DNA of 64,000 nt from Notamacropus eugenii (Eukaryota; Chordata; Mammalia; Diprotodontia; Macropodidae). Position numbers and translations under genes: made by a program. The DNA is taken from contig NC_092879.1 in assembly GCF_028372415.1 (NCBI RefSeq), positions 96,415,067-96,479,066 of the forward strand, in the 5' to 3' direction. The notes under the pieces were generated by a model. The model was given only the letters and a program-made list of their open reading frames with translations, was not told the DNA's origin and searched no databases. This document shows positions 5,427 through 58,644 of the stretch, piece by piece (positions within the stretch are counted from its first letter, which is position 1; the number at the start of each line of letters is the position of its first letter).

Positions 5427-6445
5427 ATGAGTAAACATCATAAAAGAACCCAGACTACAGAATCTTACTTTGATGACAAAGATCAAAACATACAACCAAA
5501 AGAAGATGACAAAGTCAAAGCTCCTATATCAAAAGCCTCCAAGAAAAATATGAATTGCTCTCAAGCCAAGGAAGAGCTCAAAATGGATTTTGAAAATCAA
5601 GTAAGAGGAGAGCAAAAATTGAGAAGAGAAATGAGAGTGAGGCAAGAAAATCATGAAAGTTGAGTCAACAGCTTGCTAAAAGAGACCCCCCCAAAAAAAA
5701 GTACTGAAGAAAATAACACTTTAAAAATAGACTAACCCAATGACAAAAGAAGTCCAAAAGGAAAATGAGGAGAAAAATGCCTTAAAAAGCAGAATTAGCC
5801 AAATGGAAAAGGAGGTCCAAAAGCTCATGGAAGAAAGTAATTCCTTCAAAATTAGAATGGAACAAATGGAATCTAATGACTTTATGAGAAATCAAGAAAT
5901 TATAAAACAAAACCTAAAGAATGAAAAAATAGAAGACAATGTGAAATATCTCACTGGAAAAGTCACTGACCTAGAAAATAGATCCAGTAGAGGTAATTTG
6001 AAAATTACTGGACTACCTGAAAGCCATGATCAAAAAAAGAGCCTAGACATCATCTTTCAAGAAATTATCAGGGAAAATTGCCCTGGTGTTCTAGAACTAG
6101 AGGGTAAAATAGAAATTGAAAGAATCCGCCAATTACCTCTAAAAAGAGATCTTAAAAGGAAAACTCCTAGGCATACTGTAGCCAAATTCCAGAGTTCCCA
6201 GGTCAAGGACAAAATATTGCAAGCAGCCAGAAAGAAACAATTTGAATATTGTGGAAATAAACCAGGTTAATGTAAGATCTAGCAGCTTCTACATTAAGGG
6301 ATCAAAAGGCTTAGAATATGAAATTCCAGAGGTCAGAGATGCTAGGATTAAAAGCAAGAATCACCTACCCAGCAAAATTGAATATAATCCTTCAGGGGGA
6401 AAGAATAGACATTCAATGAAATGGAGGACTTTCAAGCATTCTTGA
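5427..6445 (+). pseudogene. Decayed L1-type ORF1 of HAL1 copy A
   Basis: ORF1p is an RNA-binding trimeric coiled-coil protein. Visible in order: an N-terminal basic segment from ATG 5427 (MSKHHKRTQTTESYF), a coiled coil with EVQK/QMEK heptads (~5740-5990), an RRM with GNLKITGLPES (~5994-6026), PRHTVAKFQSSQVKDKIL (~6169-6222), and a C-terminal part with IEYNPSGG. It is split over three frames: a stop at 5661-5663, then frames starting at 5740 and 6242. It is not functional as it stands. Confidence 0.85.
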
Positions 6446-10650: not shown

Positions 10651-11563
10651 CTGGTTATGTCTGCAATGTAAATGAAAAAACCCAACTAAACAAAAATTAA
10701 TAAAAAACCCCAAACTGAGAAACAAAAAATTTAATAATTAGCTACAAGATAGACAATTTGAAAAAACAAACAAACAACAATTGAGATTATGAAACTAAAT
10801 GCTGTTTAGAATTTTTTATTTGGACTTGTCATTTCATCTGATTAAGAATTTCCATTTATAGGGGAGGAGCCAAGATGGCAGAGTAGAAAGATACACAGAC
10901 GCTTAGCTCTTACCCCACAGCCCATAAAATACCTGTAAAGAAGAACTCCCAACAAATTCTGGAGCAGCAGAAGCCACAGAACAACAGAGTGGAGGAGATT
11001 TCTGTTCCAGAGAGACCTGCAAAACCAACACCAAAGGCCTGTTGCACACCTGGAGCAGAGCCCAGCCCTGCCTTGGCCTCGAGGCATCGAGGGGAGCAGA
11101 TCCGAACAGACCCAAGCAGGCTTCAGGGAGGGATCTCCAGCAGCAGCACAGGTCCCTCCACCCACAGGTACCAAAGGTCAGTGAGAGGGTCTTTTCAGCT
11201 CGAGGAGAGGGGAGCAGGGTGTCCCCATGACTCAGGCCCCCTCGGGAAGCAGCAGCAGAGGCAGCAGCAGAGGCAGCAGTGGAGGCAGCAGTGGACAAGG
11301 GCTCCCAAAGCAGGCAGGAGCTCAGATCCATTGTTGAAGGTCTCATCATAAAGCCCCTGAGGGAACTGAGCCCTATGTGGCAGCCCTGCCCCCACCTGAG
11401 CACCTGAACATAATCTTACACTGAATAGCAGCCCCACCCCCACCAAAAGCTCTGAGGCTGGGAAGCAGCATTTGAATCTCAGCCCCCAAGTGCTAGCTGG
11501 GCAGAACTGGAGGTGAGGTGGGTGTGGAGAGGAAACTCAGAAGTCAAGTAACTAGCTGGGAAA

Positions 11564-12544
11564 ATGCCCAAAAGAGGGGGGAAAAATAAGACCATAGAAG
11601 GTTACTTTCTTGGGGAACAGGTGTCTCCCCCATCCCTTCAGATGAGGAAGAACAAGGCATACTGTCAGAGGAAGTCAAAGGCCCTCCCTCCAAAGGGGAC
11701 TTAAACTTGGCTCAGGCAATAGAAGACCTTAAAAAAACAAGTTAGCAGCTTACTAAAGGAGAACCAAAAAAAAATGCTGAGGAAAATAGCAGCTTTAAAA
11801 AGAGGCTAACTCAATTGGAAAAAGAGGTCCAAAAAGCCAACGAGGAGAAGGAGGTTTTAAAAAGCAGAATTAGCCAAATGGAAGAGAAGGTTCAAAAGCT
11901 CACTGAACAAAATAATTTATTGAAAGAGAGAATTGAGTCCAGGGAAAAGAATGACTATGAGTTAAACCAAGAAGTTAGTAAACAAAACCAAAAATTTTAA
12001 AAAAATAAAAGAACTCATTGGAAAAACAACTGACCTGGAAAATAGATCCAGGGGAAACAATTTAAAAATTATTGGACTACCTGAAAGCCATGATCAAAAA
12101 AAGAGCCTAGACACTATCTTCCATGAAATTATCAAGGAAAACTGCCTTGATGTTATAGAATCAGAGGGTAAAATGGATATTGAAAAAATTAATCGCTCAC
12201 CCCCTGAAAGAAACCCAAACAGAGAAACTCCTAGGAATATTGTGGCCAAATTTCAGAGTTCCCAGATCAAGAAGAAAATACTGCAAGCACCTAGAAAGAA
12301 ACAATTTGAGTACTGTGGAAATACAATCAGGATAACACAGGATCTGACAGCTTCAACATTAAATGAATGAAGGGCTTGGAGTAGGATATTTCAGAAGTCA
12401 AAGGAACTGGGATTGAAGCCAAGAATCACCTACCCAGAATATCTGAGTATAATACTTCAAGGGGAAAAATGGACATTCAGTCATAGAGACAACTTTGAAG
12501 ATTTCATGTTCAGGAAAAGACCAGATCTGTATTTAAAAATTTGA
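11564..12544 (+). pseudogene. Decayed L1-type ORF1 of HAL1 copy B
   Basis: Starts MPKRGGKNKTIEGYF at ATG 11564. Next come a coiled coil (EVQKANEEKEVLKSRISQME near 11825), the RRM motif NNLKIIGLPESHDQ (~12055), PRNIVAKFQSSQIKKKIL (~12232), ITQDLTASTLNE (~12334) and a C-terminal domain with KPRITYPEYLS (~12415). The N-terminal part, the coiled coil and the RRM-to-end lie in different frames, with a frame change near 11630, another near 12000, and a few stops, including one after TLNE. Order and length match a complete ORF1. Confidence 0.85.
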
Positions 12545-19596: not shown

Positions 19597-20762
19597 GCAT
19601 TATTATGCATGGGCACTCATGCATATGCACACATGCATGGGCACCCATGCACATGCACACGTGCATGGGCACTTATGCATGCCCACACGTGCATGGGCAC
19701 TCATGCATGCCCGCGCATGGGCACACGTGCATGGGCACTCATGCAAAACCACCCATGCATTTGGCACACGTGCATGGGCACTCATGCATATGCACACATG
19801 CATGGGCACTCATGCATACGCACTCGTGCATGGGCACTCATGCATGCCCGCGCATGGGCACACGTGCATGGGCACTCATGCAAAACCACCCATGCATTTG
19901 GCACACGTGCATGGGGCACTCATGCATATGCACACATGCATGGGCACTCATGCATACGCACTCGTGCATGGGCACACGTGCATGCCCACACGTGCATGGG
20001 CACCCATGCATAAGCACACATGCATGGGCACCCATGCATGCCCACACGCGCATGGGCACTCATGCATGCCCACCCATGCATGGGGCAGACATGCATATGC
20101 ACACATGCATGCCCGCCCATGCATTGGCACACATGCATGGGCACCCATGCATGCCCACACGTGCATGGGCACTCATGCGTACCCACCCATGCATGGGCAG
20201 ACATGCATGGCACACGCACACATGCATGGACACTCATGCATACACAGACATGCATGGGCACTCATGCATATGCACACATGCATACCCACCCATGCATACC
20301 CACCCGTGCATTGGCACGCGTGCATGGGCACTCATGAATAACCACCCATGCATTTGGCACACGTGCATGGGCACTCATGCATACGCACTCGTGCATGGGC
20401 ACACGTGCATGTGCACTCATTCATACGCACATATGCATGGGGCACTCATGCATACCCACCCATGCATACGCACACATGCATGGCATATGCACGCGTGCAT
20501 GGGCACATGTGCATGGGCACTCATGCATACTCACCCATGCATGGGCACTCATGCATGCCCGCCCATGCATACGCAGACGTGCGTGGGCACTCATGCATAC
20601 GCAGACATGCATGGGCACTCATGCGTATGCACACATGCATGCCCGCCCACACTCATGCATACCCACCCATGCATACGCACACATGCATGGCATATGCACG
20701 CGTGCATGGGCACATGTGCATGGGCACTCATGCATACTCACCCATGCATTGGCACACGTACT
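19597..20762 (+). repeat. 1.17-kb minisatellite, 14-bp unit GCATgggcacNCAT
   Basis: Roughly 80 degenerate copies of a 14-bp unit (such as GCATGGGCACTCAT and GCATATGCACACAT) run from the end of an L1 5' fragment to unique sequence at ~20763. Higher-order structure is visible: a block of ~137 bp is repeated starting at 19695 and 19832, and one of ~207 bp starting at about 20454 and 20661. Much of it is alternating purine-pyrimidine. The + strand unit contains no stop in any frame, so three overlapping long frames result. These are a by-product and are not annotated as genes. Confidence 0.95.
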
Positions 20763-20944
20763 CTGAACTCTTTGAGATGATGCTGCCATAACACATCATG
20801 AACCTGCAACAAGGAAAAGGTCAAGTAGGATGGTGGCCTCTTGGTGCTTATGGAATGACAAATTAAGTGGAAAAATGAACCACTTGTGCAAAGAGAGCTG
20901 GGTCCTCTTGCTAACCAATTCCCTGCTACATAAAAGGAATTGAA

Positions 20945-21241
20945 AGAGGCGTTTTTATTTGTTTATTAAACCAATGTTATCACCCATAGCAAGCTGTGAA
21001 CTGCCCAAACCGGGTAAACCCTAAGGTAAACCCGCGCAGCATAAATTCCCGGGCGGAGGAAGCGGAAATACCCAGTGACCCCTGAATCCTCTTCCGGTGC
21101 TTTCTCGGCGTTCTTCCCTACCCAGATCCTCATACCTCCTCTTGCCCCGCGCTTAGAAAAGCTCACTCCCCAGATCTAACTTTGTAGCCCCAGCCAACGT
21201 TAGCTTTCCTGAAGAGTGAAGGGGGTGACCAGGTCTCCAAT
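20945..21241 (+). promoter_or_regulatory. Candidate promoter and 5' leader of the DCAF7-like retrogene
   Basis: The ~300 bp before the start codon has a local cluster of CpG dinucleotides (about 21008-21150, for example CCCGGGCGG and CCGCGC) unlike the CpG-poor flanks. It holds CTTCCGGTG at 21091-21099, a good ETS/GABP core in reverse, and a GCGGAAA at 21062. No TATA box is placed convincingly. The features fit a short housekeeping-type promoter, either carried from the parent 5' end or acquired. A transcription start was not identified. Confidence 0.45.
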
Positions 21242-23209
21242 ATGTCCTGGATGAATTATCAGTTTTCCCGGAAGGATCATCGATACCGCAGGATATACAG
21301 GTACGAAGCCCCATGGACTGTGTACGCCATGAATTGGAGTGTGCGGGCTGACCAACCTTTCCGCCTAGCACTGGGAAGCTTCATAGAGGATTATGAGAAC
21401 AAAGTGCAAGTAGTGAGACTGGCCTCTGACTGGGTAGATACCAGAGGGGATATCGTGTGCAACTATACCTTGCAGCACCCCTATCCCCCCACCAAAATCA
21501 TGTGGATCCCTGACCCTCAGGGCATCCACCCAGACCTTCTGGCCACCAGTGCTGACCACCTGCGGGTATGGCGCTGCCTGAGTCCCTGTGAGGTAATACC
21601 TGCTGCCAGCAGGGCCAGAGGATCTATCCATAGGGTCCAGGTGCTAGGGGGCAGTGTTTCCCGAGGGCGTGGCCGTGGAATTATCTCTGCTGCAGCCGAG
21701 ATCATACCTGCTGCCAGCAGGGCCAGAGGATCTATCCATAGGGTCCAGGAGCCAGGGGGCAGCGTTTCCCGAGGGCGTGGCCGTGGAATTTTGTCTGTTG
21801 CCGCTGAGTTGTTAGCTGCTGTGGGCAGGGCCAGAGGACCTATCCATAGGGTCCCGGAGCTAAGGAGCAGTGTTTTCCGAGGGCGTGGCCGTGGAATTAC
21901 GTCTGCTGCAGCCAAGGTGATGCCTGCTGAGGGCAAGGCCAGAGGATCTATCCATAGTGTCCAGGAGCTAAGGGGCAGTGTTTTCCAAAGGCATGGCCGT
22001 GGAATTACGTCTGCTGCAGCCAAGGTGATGCCTGCTGAGGGCAGGGCCAGAGGATCTATTCGTAGTGTCCAGGAGCTAAGGGGCAGTGTTTTCCAAGGGC
22101 GTGGCCGTGGAATTACGTCTGCTGCAGCCAAGGTGATGCCTGCTGAGGGCAGGGCCAGAGGATCTATTCGTAGTGTCCAGGAGCTAAGGGGCAGTGTTTT
22201 CCGAGGGCGTGGCCGTGGAATTACTTCTGCTGCAGCCAAGGTGATGCCTGCTGAGGGCAGGGCCAGAGGATCTATCCATAGTGTCCAGGAGCTACGGGGC
22301 AGTGTTTTCCGAGGGCGTGGCCTTGGAATTATGTCTGCTGTAGCTGAGATGATGGCTGCTATGGGCAGGGCCAGAGGATCTATGCATAGGGTCCAAGAGC
22401 TAGGGGGCAGTGTTTTCAGAGGGCGTGGTAGTGGAATTATCTCAACCACAGCTGCTTCCACAGTCCCGGCTACTGCCTTTGACTTGGACCTCCAGCTTGA
22501 GTGCCTGCTCAACCATAACGAAAATAGTACTCCTTTCTTCTCGCCCCTCACCTCTTTCGACTGGAATGCCACAGACCCTTGCATACTGGTTACATCTTGC
22601 ATCGATACCACATGCACCATCTGGGCTCTGGAGACCAGCCAGGTACTGGGCCAAGTGTCTGGTCACCAGCGGGAGCACTTTAGCTCCCACAACAAAGAGG
22701 TCTATGACGTTGCCTTTGGAGGGGGCCGAGATGTATTTGCCTCAGTGAGTGCTGATGGCTCTCTGCGGCTGTTTGACCTGCGAAGGCTTCACCATAGCAC
22801 CATAGTATATCAGGAACCCCGGCACCTGCCACTGCTGCGCCTGGCCTGGAACAAACAGGACCTCAACTACCTGGCCACCCTGGCCATGGACTCCACCGAG
22901 GTGGCCGTCCTTGACCTGCGCATGCCTGGCTCACCTGTGGCCCGCCTTAACCGCCATAGGGCCTGTGTCAATGGGCTCACCTGGGCACCCAACTCTGCAG
23001 GTCACATCTGCACTGCTTCCGATGACTACCAGGCCCTCATTTGGAATATTCAGCAAATGCCCCAAGATGTCAAAAACCCTATCCTGACCCACACCACCAA
23101 TGGGGCGATCAACAACGTGCAGTGGGCGGCCATCCAGACCGACTGGATTGCCATGTGCTATAATAACTTCCTGGAACTTCTCCGAGTCCAAGGCCCTGAC
23201 CTGGGCTAG
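21242..23209 (+). CDS. DCAF7/WDR68-like WD40 retrogene with eight 36-residue RG-rich repeats
   Basis: One uninterrupted 655-codon frame. Residues ~18-117 and ~414-651 align along their length with vertebrate DCAF7 (342 aa), as recalled: YEAPWTVYAMNWSVR, HPYP.TK.MWIPD, LTSFDWN, DTTCTIW, NKEVYD, HRACVNG, ALIWNIQQMP, NNVQW and a C-terminal LELLRV. The DxR-type blade ends FDLRRL and VLDLRMPG are kept. DCAF7 is a propeller scaffold for DYRK1A/HIPK2 kinases and a DDB1-CUL4 substrate receptor. The parent gene has introns, so an intronless copy implies retroposition. Residues 118-405 are an inserted repeat array placed after the LRVWR blade end, and removing it leaves about the parental length. Small in-frame differences include a shorter GGGRD loop, an ~8-residue longer N terminus and a PDLG tail. 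The start at 21242 has A at -3; a second ATG lies three codons on. By eye the propeller is about two-thirds identical to human DCAF7. An open frame of this length suggests selection. Identity of the family is firm; expression and function are inferred. Confidence 0.9.
   Translation: MSWMNYQFSRKDHRYRRIYRYEAPWTVYAMNWSVRADQPFRLALGSFIEDYENKVQVVRLASDWVDTRGDIVCNYTLQHPYPPTKIMWIPDPQGIHPDLLATSADHLRVWRCLSPCEVIPAASRARGSIHRVQVLGGSVSRGRGRGIISAAAEIIPAASRARGSIHRVQEPGGSVSRGRGRGILSVAAELLAAVGRARGPIHRVPELRSSVFRGRGRGITSAAAKVMPAEGKARGSIHSVQELRGSVFQRHGRGITSAAAKVMPAEGRARGSIRSVQELRGSVFQGRGRGITSAAAKVMPAEGRARGSIRSVQELRGSVFRGRGRGITSAAAKVMPAEGRARGSIHSVQELRGSVFRGRGLGIMSAVAEMMAAMGRARGSMHRVQELGGSVFRGRGSGIISTTAASTVPATAFDLDLQLECLLNHNENSTPFFSPLTSFDWNATDPCILVTSCIDTTCTIWALETSQVLGQVSGHQREHFSSHNKEVYDVAFGGGRDVFASVSADGSLRLFDLRRLHHSTIVYQEPRHLPLLRLAWNKQDLNYLATLAMDSTEVAVLDLRMPGSPVARLNRHRACVNGLTWAPNSAGHICTASDDYQALIWNIQQMPQDVKNPILTHTTNGAINNVQWAAIQTDWIAMCYNNFLELLRVQGPDLG
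21593..22456 (+). repeat. Coding minisatellite: 8 x 108 bp (36 aa) inside the DCAF7-like gene
   Basis: Eight exact-length 108-bp units begin at 21593, 21701, 21809, 21917, 22025, 22133, 22241 and 22349. Each encodes a variant of a 36-residue unit with the ordered motifs ARGSIH, VQEL.GSVF, RGRGRGI and SAAAK/E. Units 4-7 are nearly identical, while units 1-3 and 8 are more divergent, as expected of an array homogenised at its centre. Every unit is basic and rich in Arg, Gly, Ser and Ala and has no predicted blade signature, so it probably forms a flexible loop between propeller blades. RG-rich segments often bind nucleic acid or are arginine-methylated, but no such role is shown here. Confidence 0.95.
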
Positions 23210-23318
23210 AGGACCAAGTCCTGAGCCTCAACCCAAACACCTACCCAAAGAAGTTAAGAGAAAGGGAACATAAATAGCTGTTACAAAACTGTTGTTCTTG
23301 CTTATAGTTCATCAGCCT

Positions 23319-23480
23319 TTGCCAGAAAATTCCAGAAATGTTAAGACTTCAGACTTTTGTCAGAAAATTTCCAAGATGCTACAACTATTAAGACTTTTGC
23401 CAGAAAATTCCCAAAATGTTATGATTGTGAAGATTTTTGCCAGAAATTTCCAAAGATGCTACAACTATTCCGACCTTTGG
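23319..23480 (+). repeat. Tandem repeat in the retrogene 3' UTR (~4 units of 40-48 bp)
   Basis: Four imperfect units share the ordered words GACTTTTGCCAGAAAATTCC, then AATGTTA or GATGCTACAACTATT. They start within 120 bp of the stop codon of the DCAF7-like gene and probably lie in its 3' untranslated region. Confidence 0.8.
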
Positions 23481-23591
23481 CAGTCAGTCCCATAGCCTGG
23501 CCTGGATTCACACTAACCCCCAGGATGTGAGAAGAACCTGAAGGGGTACCACCACTGGAGTTCCAACTTAAAGCTACTTGCCAAGTTTATT

Positions 23592-23597
23592 ATTAAA
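23592..23597 (+). terminator. Candidate polyadenylation signal ATTAAA
   Basis: ATTAAA lies about 385 bp after the retrogene stop codon and is followed within ~45 bp by a T/GT-rich stretch (TTTATTGTGTTAATT). It is the first reasonable signal after the 3' UTR repeat. No genomic poly(A) tract marks an old retroposition end here. Confidence 0.4.
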
Positions 23598-23679
23598 CAA
23601 AAATTGTGCATAATCCTTTGTCAGCCTTTATTGTGTTAATTAGCATTAGGGTTTGAGTGGTAGTTGTGGCTAGAAGGTA

Positions 23680-23815
23680 GGGGGAGGGAGAGCTTTAAAG
23701 GGGAGAGCTTTAAGGTGGTGGGATGAGGGGGGACTTTAAGGGAGAGGGGGAAGGGGCCTTTAAGGCTGTAGGAGGAGGGAGACCTTAAAGCAGGGGGTAG
23801 GGGGGCTTTAAGTCC
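23680..23815 (+). repeat. G-rich degenerate repeat around GGGGAGAGCTTTAA
   Basis: About five imperfect units of 25-30 bp combine a G/A-rich run with CTTTAAGG or CTTTAAAG. Multiple GGGG/GGGGGG runs give G-quadruplex potential on the + strand. It lies just downstream of the retrogene. Confidence 0.65.
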
Positions 23816-24789
23816 ACCTGTCTTGCTCCCTGCCCCAGGCAGCTAACCTACTTCCTTCCCTAGCTCCTAAAGAAAATGTCAGCTTTCAAAAAGACTGCCC
23901 TTCTGCCTTATCCAATCTTAAAGACATTTTATTTTAGGTTGTTAACTTTTAAAATGTTCAGTTAAGTGAAATGACTTTCACTTCCACTTCTAAAACAGAG
24001 GGACAGAGTTTCCTCACTAATAATGAAATCCCATTTCAGTCCTTGTCCCAATTCTAATCTAAAGAAAAACGATAGGCCCTGACATGAGGACCATTAGTGC
24101 TTCCTTTCAATTCCTCTGACAAGGATACCTGGAGCCACGTGATCAGGCCCTAAAAAATGTGGTGGCAGTGGGTGAAATTTCCAAGAAAATAAAGGTCACT
24201 TGAGAGTGAAGGTGGGAGGTGAGAATACAGGGAAGGGGAGGAGGTGAGGGTAGAATAGCCAGCTAGAGGTGAAAAATGGGGATAGGATTGGACTGAGAAG
24301 TGGAGATGGAGGCAAGAGTTCAGGCCATGGTAGAAAGTGGGGGTGGGGTGAGAAGGGAGTTGGAGAGAGAGTAGGGATAGAGTGGAGATGGAATTGGAGG
24401 TAAGGACCATGGAAACGAAACTGGACCTTTGACTTGTGGCAGAAGAGCATAGACTGGCTGCCATTAGGAAGGCACTTCCTACCAAGTTTAGGTGACTGAG
24501 CCTGAGTCACACAGCTAGGAAATGCCTGAGGGAGGATGTAACTAGCCCCTCCCTATGGGCATCTCAGAACACTCTTAGGAAGGTGAATTGGGGGGGAGGG
24601 GGGAAGGAGACGAGGAGGCCCCAGAGCACAAGCCCACCTTGGGCAATCCATCTCGGCTCTCAGCCAATCCGTGAGCTCAGAGACTAAGAAAGAAGAGACT
24701 ACATACACAGGCAGCTACCTCAGAGAGCATTAGAAGAATACAAGGTATCGCTGTGCTGCCCATGCTGTTGGGAGCTCACCAGGAGACGG
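23816..24789. other. Unassigned, G/A-rich on the plus strand
   Basis: 24185-24400 is purine-rich with frequent GGAG/GGTGAG words, and a GGGGGGGAGGGGGG run lies near 24590. The minus-strand Pro/Ser/His-rich frames reflect this composition. Confidence 0.45.
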
Positions 24790-36534: not shown

Positions 36535-39500
36535 AAGGAAAGAGATAAGGAAGGAACTTATATCCTGCTAAAAGGTACTGTAGATAATGAAGCAATATCA
36601 TTACTAAACATACATGCTCCAGGTGGTACAGCATCCAGATTCTTAGAGGAGAAGCTCAGGGAGTTACAGGAAGAAACAGACAGCAAAACTATACTAGTGG
36701 GGGACCTCAACCTCCCCCTCTCTGAACTTGGTAAAGTTAACCTCAAAATAAGCAAGAAAGAAGTGAAGAAAGTGAATAACTCTGGATAAGGTAGATATGA
36801 GAGATCTTTGGAGAAAACTGAATGGGGATAGAAAGGAACATGCCTTTTTCTCAGCAGTATATGGCACATATACAAAAACTGACCATGTACTAGGGCATGG
36901 AAACCTCACAATCCAGTGCAGAAAGGCACAGATGGTCAATGCATCCCTCTCAGATCACAGTGCAATAAAAATTATATGTAATAAAAGGCCATGGAAAGAT
37001 AGACCAAAAATTAATTGGCAACTAAATAATCTAATCCTAAAGAAGGAGTGGGTTAAACAACAAATCATAGAAACAATCAACAACTTCAGTCAAGAGAATG
37101 ACAATAATGAGACAACCTACCAAATCTTATGGGATACTGCAAAAGCAGTTCTTAGGGGAAGCTTTATAACATTGAAAGCCTACATGAATAAAATAGAGAA
37201 AGAGGAGATCAATGAATTGGGCAGGCAGCTGAAAAAGCTAAAAAAAGAACAAATTGAAAATCCCCAAGTAAATACCAAATTAGAAATACTGAAAACCAAA
37301 GGAAAGATTAATAAAATTGAAATTAAGAAAACCATTGAACTAATAAATAAAACTAAGTGTTGGTTTTATGAAAGAACCAATAAAATTGATAAACCTTTGG
37401 TCAATTTGATTAAAAAAAGAAAGAAGAAAACCCAGTTACCAATATCAAAAGTGGAAAGGGTGAACTCACCTCCAATAAGTGGGAAATTAAAACAATAACT
37501 AGAAATTACTTTGCCCAACTGTATGCCCATAAATTTGACAATCTCAGTAAGATGGATGAATATTTAAAAAATATAAATTGCCCAGATTAACAGAAGAGGA
37601 CATTGAATACTTAAATAACCCCATCGGAGGAATGAAATTGAAAAAGCCAACAATGATTTCCCTAGGAAAAAATCTCCTGGGCCAGATGGATTTGCAAGTG
37701 AATTCTATCAAGCATTTAAACAACAGCTAATTCCAATACTATATAGACTATATGGGAAAATTGGGGAAGAAGGAGTCCTACCAAATTCTTTTTATGATAC
37801 AAATATGGTACAAATACAAAGAGTCAAAACAGAGAAAGAAAAGTATAGACAAATTTCTCTAATGAATATAGATGCAAAAATTTTAAATGAGATGTTAGCA
37901 AAAAGAATACAGCAACTTATCATGAGAATAATACATTATCATCAGGTAGGATTTCTACCAGGAATGCAGAGCTGGTTCAATATTGGGAAAACTTTCAGCA
38001 TTATTGATCATATCAACAACAAAACTAACAGAAATCATATGATTATCTCAATAGATGCAGAAAAAGCTTTTGACCAAATACAGCACCCATTCCTATTGAA
38101 AACACTGGAAAGCATAGGAATGAATGGAGGCTTCCATAAAATAATAAGCAGTATCTACATAAAACCATTGGCAAGGACTATATGTAATGGGGATAAGTTA
38201 GATGCATTTCCGATAAGATCAGGGGTGAAACAAGGATGTCTATTATCACCACTGTTATTCAATATGGTACTAGGAATGTTAGCTATAGCAATAAGAGAAG
38301 AAAAAGAAACTGAAGGAATTAGAACAGGCAAAGAAGAAACTAAGTTATGACTGATATGATGATATACTTAGAGAATCCTAGAGAATCAAGTAAAAAAACT
38401 ACTTGAAATGGTAAACGACTTTGGCAAAGTTGCAGGTTATAAAATAAACCCACATAAGTCATCTGCATTTCTATATAATACTAACAAAGCCCAACAGCAA
38501 GAGATAGAAAGAGAAATCCCATTTAAAGCTAAGGTAGACAATATAAAATAACTGGAAATCTACTTGCCAAAACAAGACCAGGGACTATATGAACACAATT
38601 ACAAAACACTTTTCACACAAATAAAGTCAGATCTAAGTAAGTGGAAAAACATCAGTTGCTCGTGGGTAGGCCAAGCTAATATAATAAAAATCACAATTCT
38701 ACCCAAATGAATTTGCTTATTCAGTGCCATACCAATCAAACTACCAGAGAAACATTGTCTAGAGCTAGAAAAAATAATATCAAAATTCATTTAGAAGGAC
38801 AAAAGGTCGAGAATATATTGAGAACTAATGAAAAGAAATGCTAGGGAAGGTGGCCTAGCCCCACCAGATCTCAAATTGTATTGTAAAGCAGCAACTATCA
38901 AAACCACTTGGTACTGGCTAAGAAACACAGGGGTATAACAGTGGAATAGGTTAGGTACTCAAAACACAGTAGGCAATGAGTATAGCAATCTACTGTTTGA
39001 TAAACCCAAGGATTGAGCTTCTGGGTTAAGAACTCACTGTTTGACAAAAATTACTTGGAAAAGTGGATAACAGTGTGGCAGAACCTGGGCATAGACCAAT
39101 GCCTGACACTGTACACAAGAAGAAAGTCCAAATGGGTACATGATCTAGGTAAAAAGATTGATACTATAAACAAATTGGTGGAGCAAGGAATAGTGCTTTT
39201 ATCAGATTTATGGAGAATGGATAAATTCTTAACTAAACAGGAGATAGAAAACATTATGAAGTGCAAAATGGATAATTTTGATTACAATAAATTGAAAAAT
39301 TTTTGCACAAACATACCCAATGCAACCAAGATTAGGAGGGAAGCAGAAAACTGGGAAAGAATTTTTGCAACCAGTGTCTGTGATAAAGGCCTCATTTCTA
39401 AAATATATACAGAATTGAGTCAAATGTACAAGAACACAAGTCATTCCTCAACTGATAAATGGTCAAAGGATATGAAGAGGCAGTTTTCAGAGGAAGAAAT

Positions 39501-57357: not shown

Positions 57358-58279
57358 ATTTCTCTTCCCAGCTTTTCCTCCACCTCTCTAACTTGATTTT
57401 CAAAATCCTTTTTGAGCTCTTCCATGGCCTGAGCCCATTGGGTGGGCTGGGATACAGAAGCCTTGAATTCTATGTCTTTCCCTGATGGTAAGCATTATTT
57501 TTCTTCATCAGAAAGGATGGGAGGAGATATCTGTTCACCAAGAAAGTATGGTCTTATTGGTCTATGGTCTTATTGTTTTTCCCTTTTCTGGGCATTTTCC
57601 CAGCCAGTGACTTGACTTCTGAGTTTCCTTTCCACACCCACCTCATCACCAGATCCACCCAGCTAGTGCTTGGGGGCTGAGATTCAAGTACTGTTCCCCA
57701 GCCTCAGGGTTTTTGGTGGGGGCGGGGCTGCTATTCAGTTGAGATTAAGTTCAGGTGCTCAGGTGGGGGCAGGGCTGCCACATGGGGCTCAGTTCCCTCA
57801 GGGGGTTTATGATGAGACCTTCAGCAATGGATCTGAGCTCCTGCCTGATTTGGGAGCCTCTGTCTGCTTCTGCCTCTGCTGCTGCCTCTGCTGCTGCTTA
57901 CCGAGGGGGCCTGAGTCATGGGGACACCCTGCTCCCCTCTCAGGGAGCTGAAAAGACTCTCTCACTGACCTTTGGCACCTGTGGCTGGAAGGACCTGTGC
58001 AGCTGCTGGAGATTCTGTCCCTGAAGCCTGCTGAGATCTGCTCCTCTTGATGCTGCGCAGCCAAGGCAGGGCTGGGCTCTGCTCCAGTCCAGTGCATGAC
58101 AGACCTTTGGTGCTGGTTTTTCAGGTCTCTCTGGAACAGAAGTCTCCTCCACACCATTGTTCTGAGGCTTCTGCTGCTCCAGAATTTGTTGGGAGTTCTT
58201 CTTTACAGGTATTTTCTGGGCTGTGGGTTCCTGGCTAGCATATGTGTATCTTTCTACTCTGCCATCTTGGCTCCTCCCC
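57358..58279 (-). mobile_element. Reversed 5'-end-only L1/HAL1 insertion with 18-bp duplication
   Basis: On the minus strand it starts at 58279 with the intact leader GGGGAGGAGCCAAGATGGCA, runs through a GCAGCAGAGGCAG-bearing 5' UTR and the ORF1 start (ATGCCCAGAAAAGGG, near 57600), and stops inside ORF1 at 57358 without a poly(A) tract. TTATGTTGTAATTATCTC is repeated exactly at 57340-57357 and 58280-58297. So it is a complete insertion of a 3'-truncated transcript into HAL1 C. Confidence 0.85.
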
Positions 58280-58644
58280 TTATGTTGTAATTATCTCCAA
58301 CAAAAAAAAATGAAAGGGGGATGAAGAGGAATGCATTGGGAGAAGGGGGCAATGGGAGAGGTAAAAAGGAGAGATTTTTCTCACATAAAACAGGTACACA
58401 AGGAAGAACTTTTATAGTAGGGTGGAAAATGGTAGGGGTGACTCCAATGCTTGAACCTCATTCTCAATGGCATTGGTTCAAAGAGGGCAATACACAAACA
58501 CATTCAGTTGGTTATAGAAATCTATCTTATCCAATAAGGAAAAAGGAGGGGAAGGGGATAAGAGATTGGCAAGGTGTATGTGTGGGGCGGGGGGAGGTGA
58601 GATAGTAAAAGTAAAAATAACCTTGCACTTTGGAAAGAAAGGTA

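Follow-up and report, generated by a model that had tools for sequence, protein, structure and literature searches.

An intronless DCAF7 retrogene in Notamacropus eugenii with a propeller shaped by purifying selection and an in-frame array of 108-bp repeats

The window analyzed here is the whole stretch of 64,000 nucleotides from Notamacropus eugenii at C25:96415067-96479066. ORF listing and translation revealed a frame of 655 codons plus stop on the plus strand, without internal stop, as an earlier note had claimed; an in-frame TAG is found at 21185, 18 codons 5' of its ATG (Table 1). Its parent is DCAF7 (WDR68/HAN11), with which the product shares the seven-repeat WD40 propeller, the repeat order and both DxR positions. 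Identical residues amounted to 226 of 336 in a global alignment and to 219 of 318 (68.9%) in codon blocks, so that the earlier estimate of roughly a third of residues differing was right. For these comparisons, and as a guide to the parental splice sites, we used what we take to be the human DCAF7 protein sequence. The alignment spans all seven blades, each 62–78% identical, and Pfam recognized the WD40 family PF00400 with 40.3 bits against a cut-off of 27. In both boxes of the WDxR/DxR type, a motif defined for DCAFs in PMC7457511, the D and the R are retained. Structure prediction for the whole protein was uninformative on the fold (mean pLDDT 35).

Besides being intronless and lying on another chromosome, the copy differs from DCAF7 in a longer N-terminus, small loop deletions and a net gain of 300 codons in blade 2, and about 31% of the aligned residues are changed where the parent is identical to human. 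The gain is due to an insert containing eight full repeat units, which confirmed the 288 residues of eight 36-residue repeats previously proposed. Tandem Repeats Finder described the array as having a period of 108, 7.9 copies, 90% matches and 0% indels, and 31 RG pairs were counted within the 307-residue insert. The array had been placed at an inter-blade position, which has to be corrected: it follows RVWR, the WD-equivalent of the second repeat, and by the WD40 convention it would sit in blade 2, in the loop joining strands c and d.

Table 1. Features of the DCAF7-derived locus, in positions of the window
Feature	Positions	Strand	Basis or remark
Candidate promoter/5'UTR: CpG-rich 5' flank with CTTCCGG (ETS-type) site at 21091	21000..21241	+	
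Intronless DCAF7-derived frame, 655 codons plus stop	21242..23209	+	DCAF7 parent gene present in this assembly
Propeller, N-terminal part (blade 1 and strands a-c of blade 2), ending ...RVWR	21242..21574	+	DCAF7 alignment; blades assigned by inference from WD40 convention
Insert with short linkers, 307 codons (7 in DCAF7), at parent exon 2/exon 3 junction	21575..22495	+	Alignment; parent gene structure
Eight tandem 108-bp (36-residue) repeats, basic, Gly/Arg/Ala/Ser-rich, consensus EVMPAEGRARGSIHRVQELRGSVFRGRGRGIMSAAA	21590..22453	+	
Hypothetical in-frame intron, 903 nt, GAG/GTAATA ... CTCCAG/CTT, which would remove the array	21593..22495	+	Weak sites
Propeller, C-terminal part (strand d of blade 2 to blade 7)	22496..23206	+	DCAF7 alignment
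First DxR box, FDLR, same as DCAF7	22772..22783	+	
Second DxR box, LDLR (DCAF7: LDVR), D and R retained	22910..22921	+	
Block like parent 3'UTR (+259 to +305 after stop), 78% identical	23599..23648	+	E 1.2e-4; reversed control empty
Block like parent 3'UTR (+358 to +529), 65% identical	23830..23991	+	E 4e-11; reversed control empty

The assembly to which the window belongs (3.445 Gb, 254 contigs) was searched at the protein level with the frame as query. Of the seven places found, one was the query frame and the remaining six were exon-sized matches on a different contig, C2; other retrocopies were sought with the diverged copy as the only query. The exon matches were mapped separately and splice sites were solved under the guidance of the human protein, which yielded a DCAF7 gene at G000:C2:344121873-344151340 (-) with seven coding exons, six introns (18702, 1202, 904, 4418, 1432 and 1781 nt) and a coding sequence of 1029 nt, whose translation equals, over 342 residues, the sequence that we take to be human DCAF7. 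Exon 2 of this gene ends after codon 99 (...RVWR), exactly where the insert of the copy starts. The copy lacks all six parental introns and would have an intron only if its array were spliced out. Behind its stop, two blocks of the parental 3'UTR were detected in colinear order, indicating that the copy came from an mRNA. With an intron-split parent on C2, an intronless copy and parental 3'UTR blocks, the earlier assignment as a DCAF7 retrogene was upheld. Comparison of the parental 5' flank and 5'UTR with the 5' flank of the copy showed no similarity beyond a purine-rich simple repeat. Neither a convincing flanking direct repeat (target-site duplication) in 20760-24500 nor an A tail was seen, and survival of such marks is not expected at such an age.

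The copy is old, since its synonymous sites are saturated. At four-fold sites 63 of 98 positions differ from the parent (K80 distance 1.47; bootstrap lower limit 0.99, upper limit undefined), a distance inflated by the rise in third-position GC from 0.53 in the parent to 0.67 in the copy. By general mammalian rates, its origin may go back about as far as the therian radiation, or further. The 3'UTR blocks at 23599-23991 are still recognizable despite the saturated four-fold sites; the UTR of the copy may itself be under selection, and the blocks, as best local matches, are biased upward in similarity.

Since retrocopies are common in mammalian genomes, the frame could be a neutral processed pseudogene that has stayed open by chance. 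A dead copy compared with a frozen parent is expected to give a pairwise omega near 0.5 rather than 1, and because DCAF7 is frozen in this way the null for a pseudogene was set at omega 0.5. In the 318 propeller codons used for the codon-model and blade comparisons, parent and copy differ at 84, 33 and 178 first, second and third codon positions, respectively, and the NG86 method gave a pN of 0.172 and a pS of 0.779. Omega 0.5 was rejected with a 2dlnL of 145, and omega 1 with a 2dlnL of 261; the maximum-likelihood dS was saturated (18.8, a meaningless value), and therefore no point estimate of omega is given. In a test that does not draw on synonymous sites, replacements in the propeller had a mean BLOSUM62 score of +0.37, against −0.57 (s.d. 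0.18) under neutrality, a value matched by none of 200 runs. Neutral simulation to the same amino acid identity predicted 4.7 stops on average (range 0–10), and none was observed. The simulations of stops and BLOSUM62 scores used hand-picked blocks covering 312 of the 342 DCAF7 residues, with the N-terminus, linkers and gapped residues omitted. General or assumed values were used for the splice-site matrices, the human codon table, the factors of the mutation model and the indel rate. These codon data reject the chance-open pseudogene, to which we attach next to no probability. The propeller has been under purifying selection for most of the life of the copy. The earlier note had taken the preservation of the frame through both repeats and propeller as a sign of selection, which holds for the propeller and fails for the array.

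Among the eight units pN/pS was 1.09 in the coding frame; the two remaining plus frames gave 0.91 and 0.56. Neutral simulations on a tree of the same depth gave a median of 0.93 (0.54–2.13), with 20% of them stop-free in every unit, and the mean BLOSUM62 score between copies, −0.33, was reached by 15% of neutral runs. Maintenance of the array by amino acid selection is thus unsupported, pN/pS lying within the neutral range. The RG box (unit positions 25–30) was no better kept than the rest: 4 of its 6 columns vary, against 20 of 30 elsewhere, a comparison of low power with eight units. The whole RGRGRG is present in half of the units (4/8), and in the three Arg codons of this box that contain a CpG, the CG was retained in 18 of 24 places. 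In its basic composition and its RG pairs the insert resembles RG/RGG-rich nucleic-acid-binding regions, but the incomplete conservation of RGRGRG, the lack of preferential conservation of the box and the absence from the array of any Pfam family above its cut-off set it apart from them. That the array is a selected nucleic-acid arm does not follow from this evidence.

Two points, on the other hand, speak for the array being read. Its eight diverged units are free of indels, which are present in 10 of the 11 other tandem-repeat rows with a period of at least 28 in the window (some rows overlap), and the selected blades downstream need the frame. Several other explanations of the array were tried and rejected. 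One plus and one minus of the six frames are open over it; the open minus frame, 21517-22620, does not call for an overlapping gene on the opposite strand, since a 108-bp unit repeats any frame that was once open. AlphaFold2 modeled the array alone as regular short strands, but with a mean pLDDT of 54, and a Foldseek search of the PDB yielded nothing below E 0.2, so that a beta-solenoid is not claimed. Sensitive blastn disclosed no match of the array to parental intron 2 or to the rest of the fetched parent locus, which dismissed an origin from either. A genome search with one unit (E 0.01), which ignores very common words and scores the best candidates only, returned eight matches, all of them the array itself.

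Because the array is located at the old exon junction, the possibility that it is an intron or exitron, transcribed but spliced out and leaving a protein of 354 residues, is a real one. Splicing of the pair 21593/22495 would be in frame and would yield RVWR-CLSPCE-LECLL, with six linker residues against seven in DCAF7, the closest return to the normal loop among the in-frame pairs, and the neutral look of the substitutions in the array would be accounted for. A second in-frame pair, 21566/22495, scores slightly higher (sum 3.9 against 3.7) and cuts into RVWR; weaker in-frame pairs join donor 21588 to acceptor 22451 or 22463, which score −0.6 each and shift the frame with donor 21593. There is precedent in a screen of human retrogenes, in which 8 of 10 introns arisen by intronization kept the frame (Kang et al. 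2012, PMC3565874). The retrogenes described there gained introns in former coding sequence, like the possible in-frame internal intron over the insert here, but the sites predicted at this locus are weak. The donor scores 2.3, under five of the six parental donors, and the acceptor 1.5, under all six parental acceptors (4.2–8.8); both lie at about the 93rd–95th percentile of GT and AG sites of the window, which is nothing unusual. An intron, moreover, need not hold eight diverged units both stop-free, as only a fifth of the simulations do, and indel-free, and the array does not resemble the parental intron at that junction. On balance, splicing out of the array is unlikely, although it is the strongest of the alternatives.

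A third possibility is that the retrogene was functional in the past, has died only recently and still has an open frame by chance. A neutral-like array would fit such a history. If frameshifts are assumed to arise at a rate of 0.07 per substitution, the frame has a probability of about 0.14 of staying open through 0.01 substitutions per site without constraint. This chance falls to about 0.02 at 0.02 substitutions per site, and purifying selection has governed most of the history of the copy; we regard recent death as quite improbable.

The chromosomal setting was examined through marker genes. G6PD and PGK are X-linked in mammals. The contig of the retrogene carries a split G6PD-like gene at C25:10.2 Mb and a split PGK-like gene at C25:75.35-75.37 Mb, which makes it most likely the X chromosome. 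Full-length stop-free PGK matches were also observed at C2:171582684-171583877 and C24:94995946-94997139, and look like PGK retrogenes.

The 240 bases before the ATG have a CpG observed/expected ratio of 0.69, compared to 0.14 for the whole window, and by this ratio they belong to the highest 0.3% of 240-bp windows. Such a flank points to a promoter that is free of methylation in the germ line, a suggestion weakened by windows in the neighboring minisatellite, and in the array, that reach similar CpG counts. The minisatellite (19605-20757, 1.15 kb) is made of CpG-bearing 28-bp units and stops some 240 bases short of this CpG-rich flank.

The reading that we consider likely, from the one genome analyzed, is an ancient X-linked retrogene for a DCAF7-type scaffold, with its own CpG-rich flank, a selected propeller and a mostly unconstrained basic loop in blade 2. 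A spliced DCAF7 mRNA would have been reverse-transcribed and inserted, long ago, on the present X chromosome, where the copy, provided with its own CpG-rich 5' flank, would have become a functional gene with a propeller under purifying selection. A 108-bp unit at the old exon 2/3 junction, in the c-d loop of blade 2, is present in eight in-frame copies. The most likely fold of the product is a scaffold of seven blades like DCAF7, from which a loop of some 300 residues, basic, Gly/Arg-rich and mostly unconstrained, would stand off one blade. The two DxR positions used for DDB1 are retained in its sequence, and kinase or substrate partners would probably be bound as in DCAF7.

According to PMC10559228, the parent is a scaffold with seven blades that tethers its partners and to which DYRK1A binds through its N-terminal part; a preprint (PMC8132244) describes it as a substrate receptor of CRL4. 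Since the retrogene keeps the scaffold-defining sequence, it is most simply read as an adaptor whose partners have changed. Within that reading, the array is probably a tolerated basic arm or spacer of variable length rather than a precisely selected domain; being neutral-like at the amino acid level, the loop may do nothing. A more elaborate version, which we hold only tentatively and at low probability, has a DCAF7-type adaptor residing on a marsupial-type X since about the origin of the lineage, with a coding minisatellite as blade loop. Repeat number would vary between individuals and species and tune the basic RG-rich arm, or in-frame splicing would switch the arm in and out, retargeting a CUL4 or DYRK scaffold in germ cells.

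Retrogenes among DCAFs are a known kind, DCAF4L and DCAF8L genes being examples. To our knowledge, no repeat array occurs in the propellers of DCAF12L, DCAF8L or DCAF4L. DCAF12L1/L2, DCAF8L1/L2 and DCAF4L1/L2 are, like the present copy, paralogues of DCAF WD40 proteins, but of different parents. According to PMC8161014, DCAF12L2 probably arose by retrotransposition and DCAF12L1 by tandem duplication, and both bind CUL4 weakly and do not bind MOV10, the partner of DCAF12, a caution that DCAF paralogues can lose partners. A catalogue of human WD40 genes (PMC5172248) lists DCAF4L1, DCAF4L2, DCAF8L1, DCAF8L2 and DCAF12L1 as testis-specific and the 8L and 12L pairs as X-linked. By analogy with such DCAF paralogues, germ-line expression would be the likeliest setting for the retrogene. 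In that catalogue 'DCAF7' appears once, as DCAF7 itself, and no DCAF7-like gene is listed. A search of the open-licence PMC literature returned no paper on a DCAF7 retrogene, a DCAF7 pseudogene, a DCAF7-like or WDR68-like gene, or DCAF7 in marsupials. No solved DCAF7 structure was present among the best 60 of 219 PDB matches, and, in line with an animal gene, the C-terminal 247 residues found no relatives in collections of bacterial/archaeal and viral contigs.

What the locus adds to this known kind is a coding minisatellite in one blade, in another DCAF retrogene on the X derived from a new parent. DCAF7 hardly changes, and a selected paralogue with about 31% of its residues replaced and a 300-residue insertion provides a ready mutational map of the DCAF7 surfaces that tolerate change with the fold and the DxR positions preserved. 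The locus is also a test case for a blade that tolerates a growing coding minisatellite, or that turns a minisatellite into an intron.

Elsewhere in the window, no Rfam family was detected. L1 elements have left remains at 5740-6270 and 37805-38350, in which the RNA-binding domain of ORF1 type (Transposase_22) and a domain of reverse transcriptase were recognized. Two copies of a 0.8-kb dispersed element with a CAG-rich tract, 85% identical, form an inverted pair at 10860-11680 and 57470-58280.
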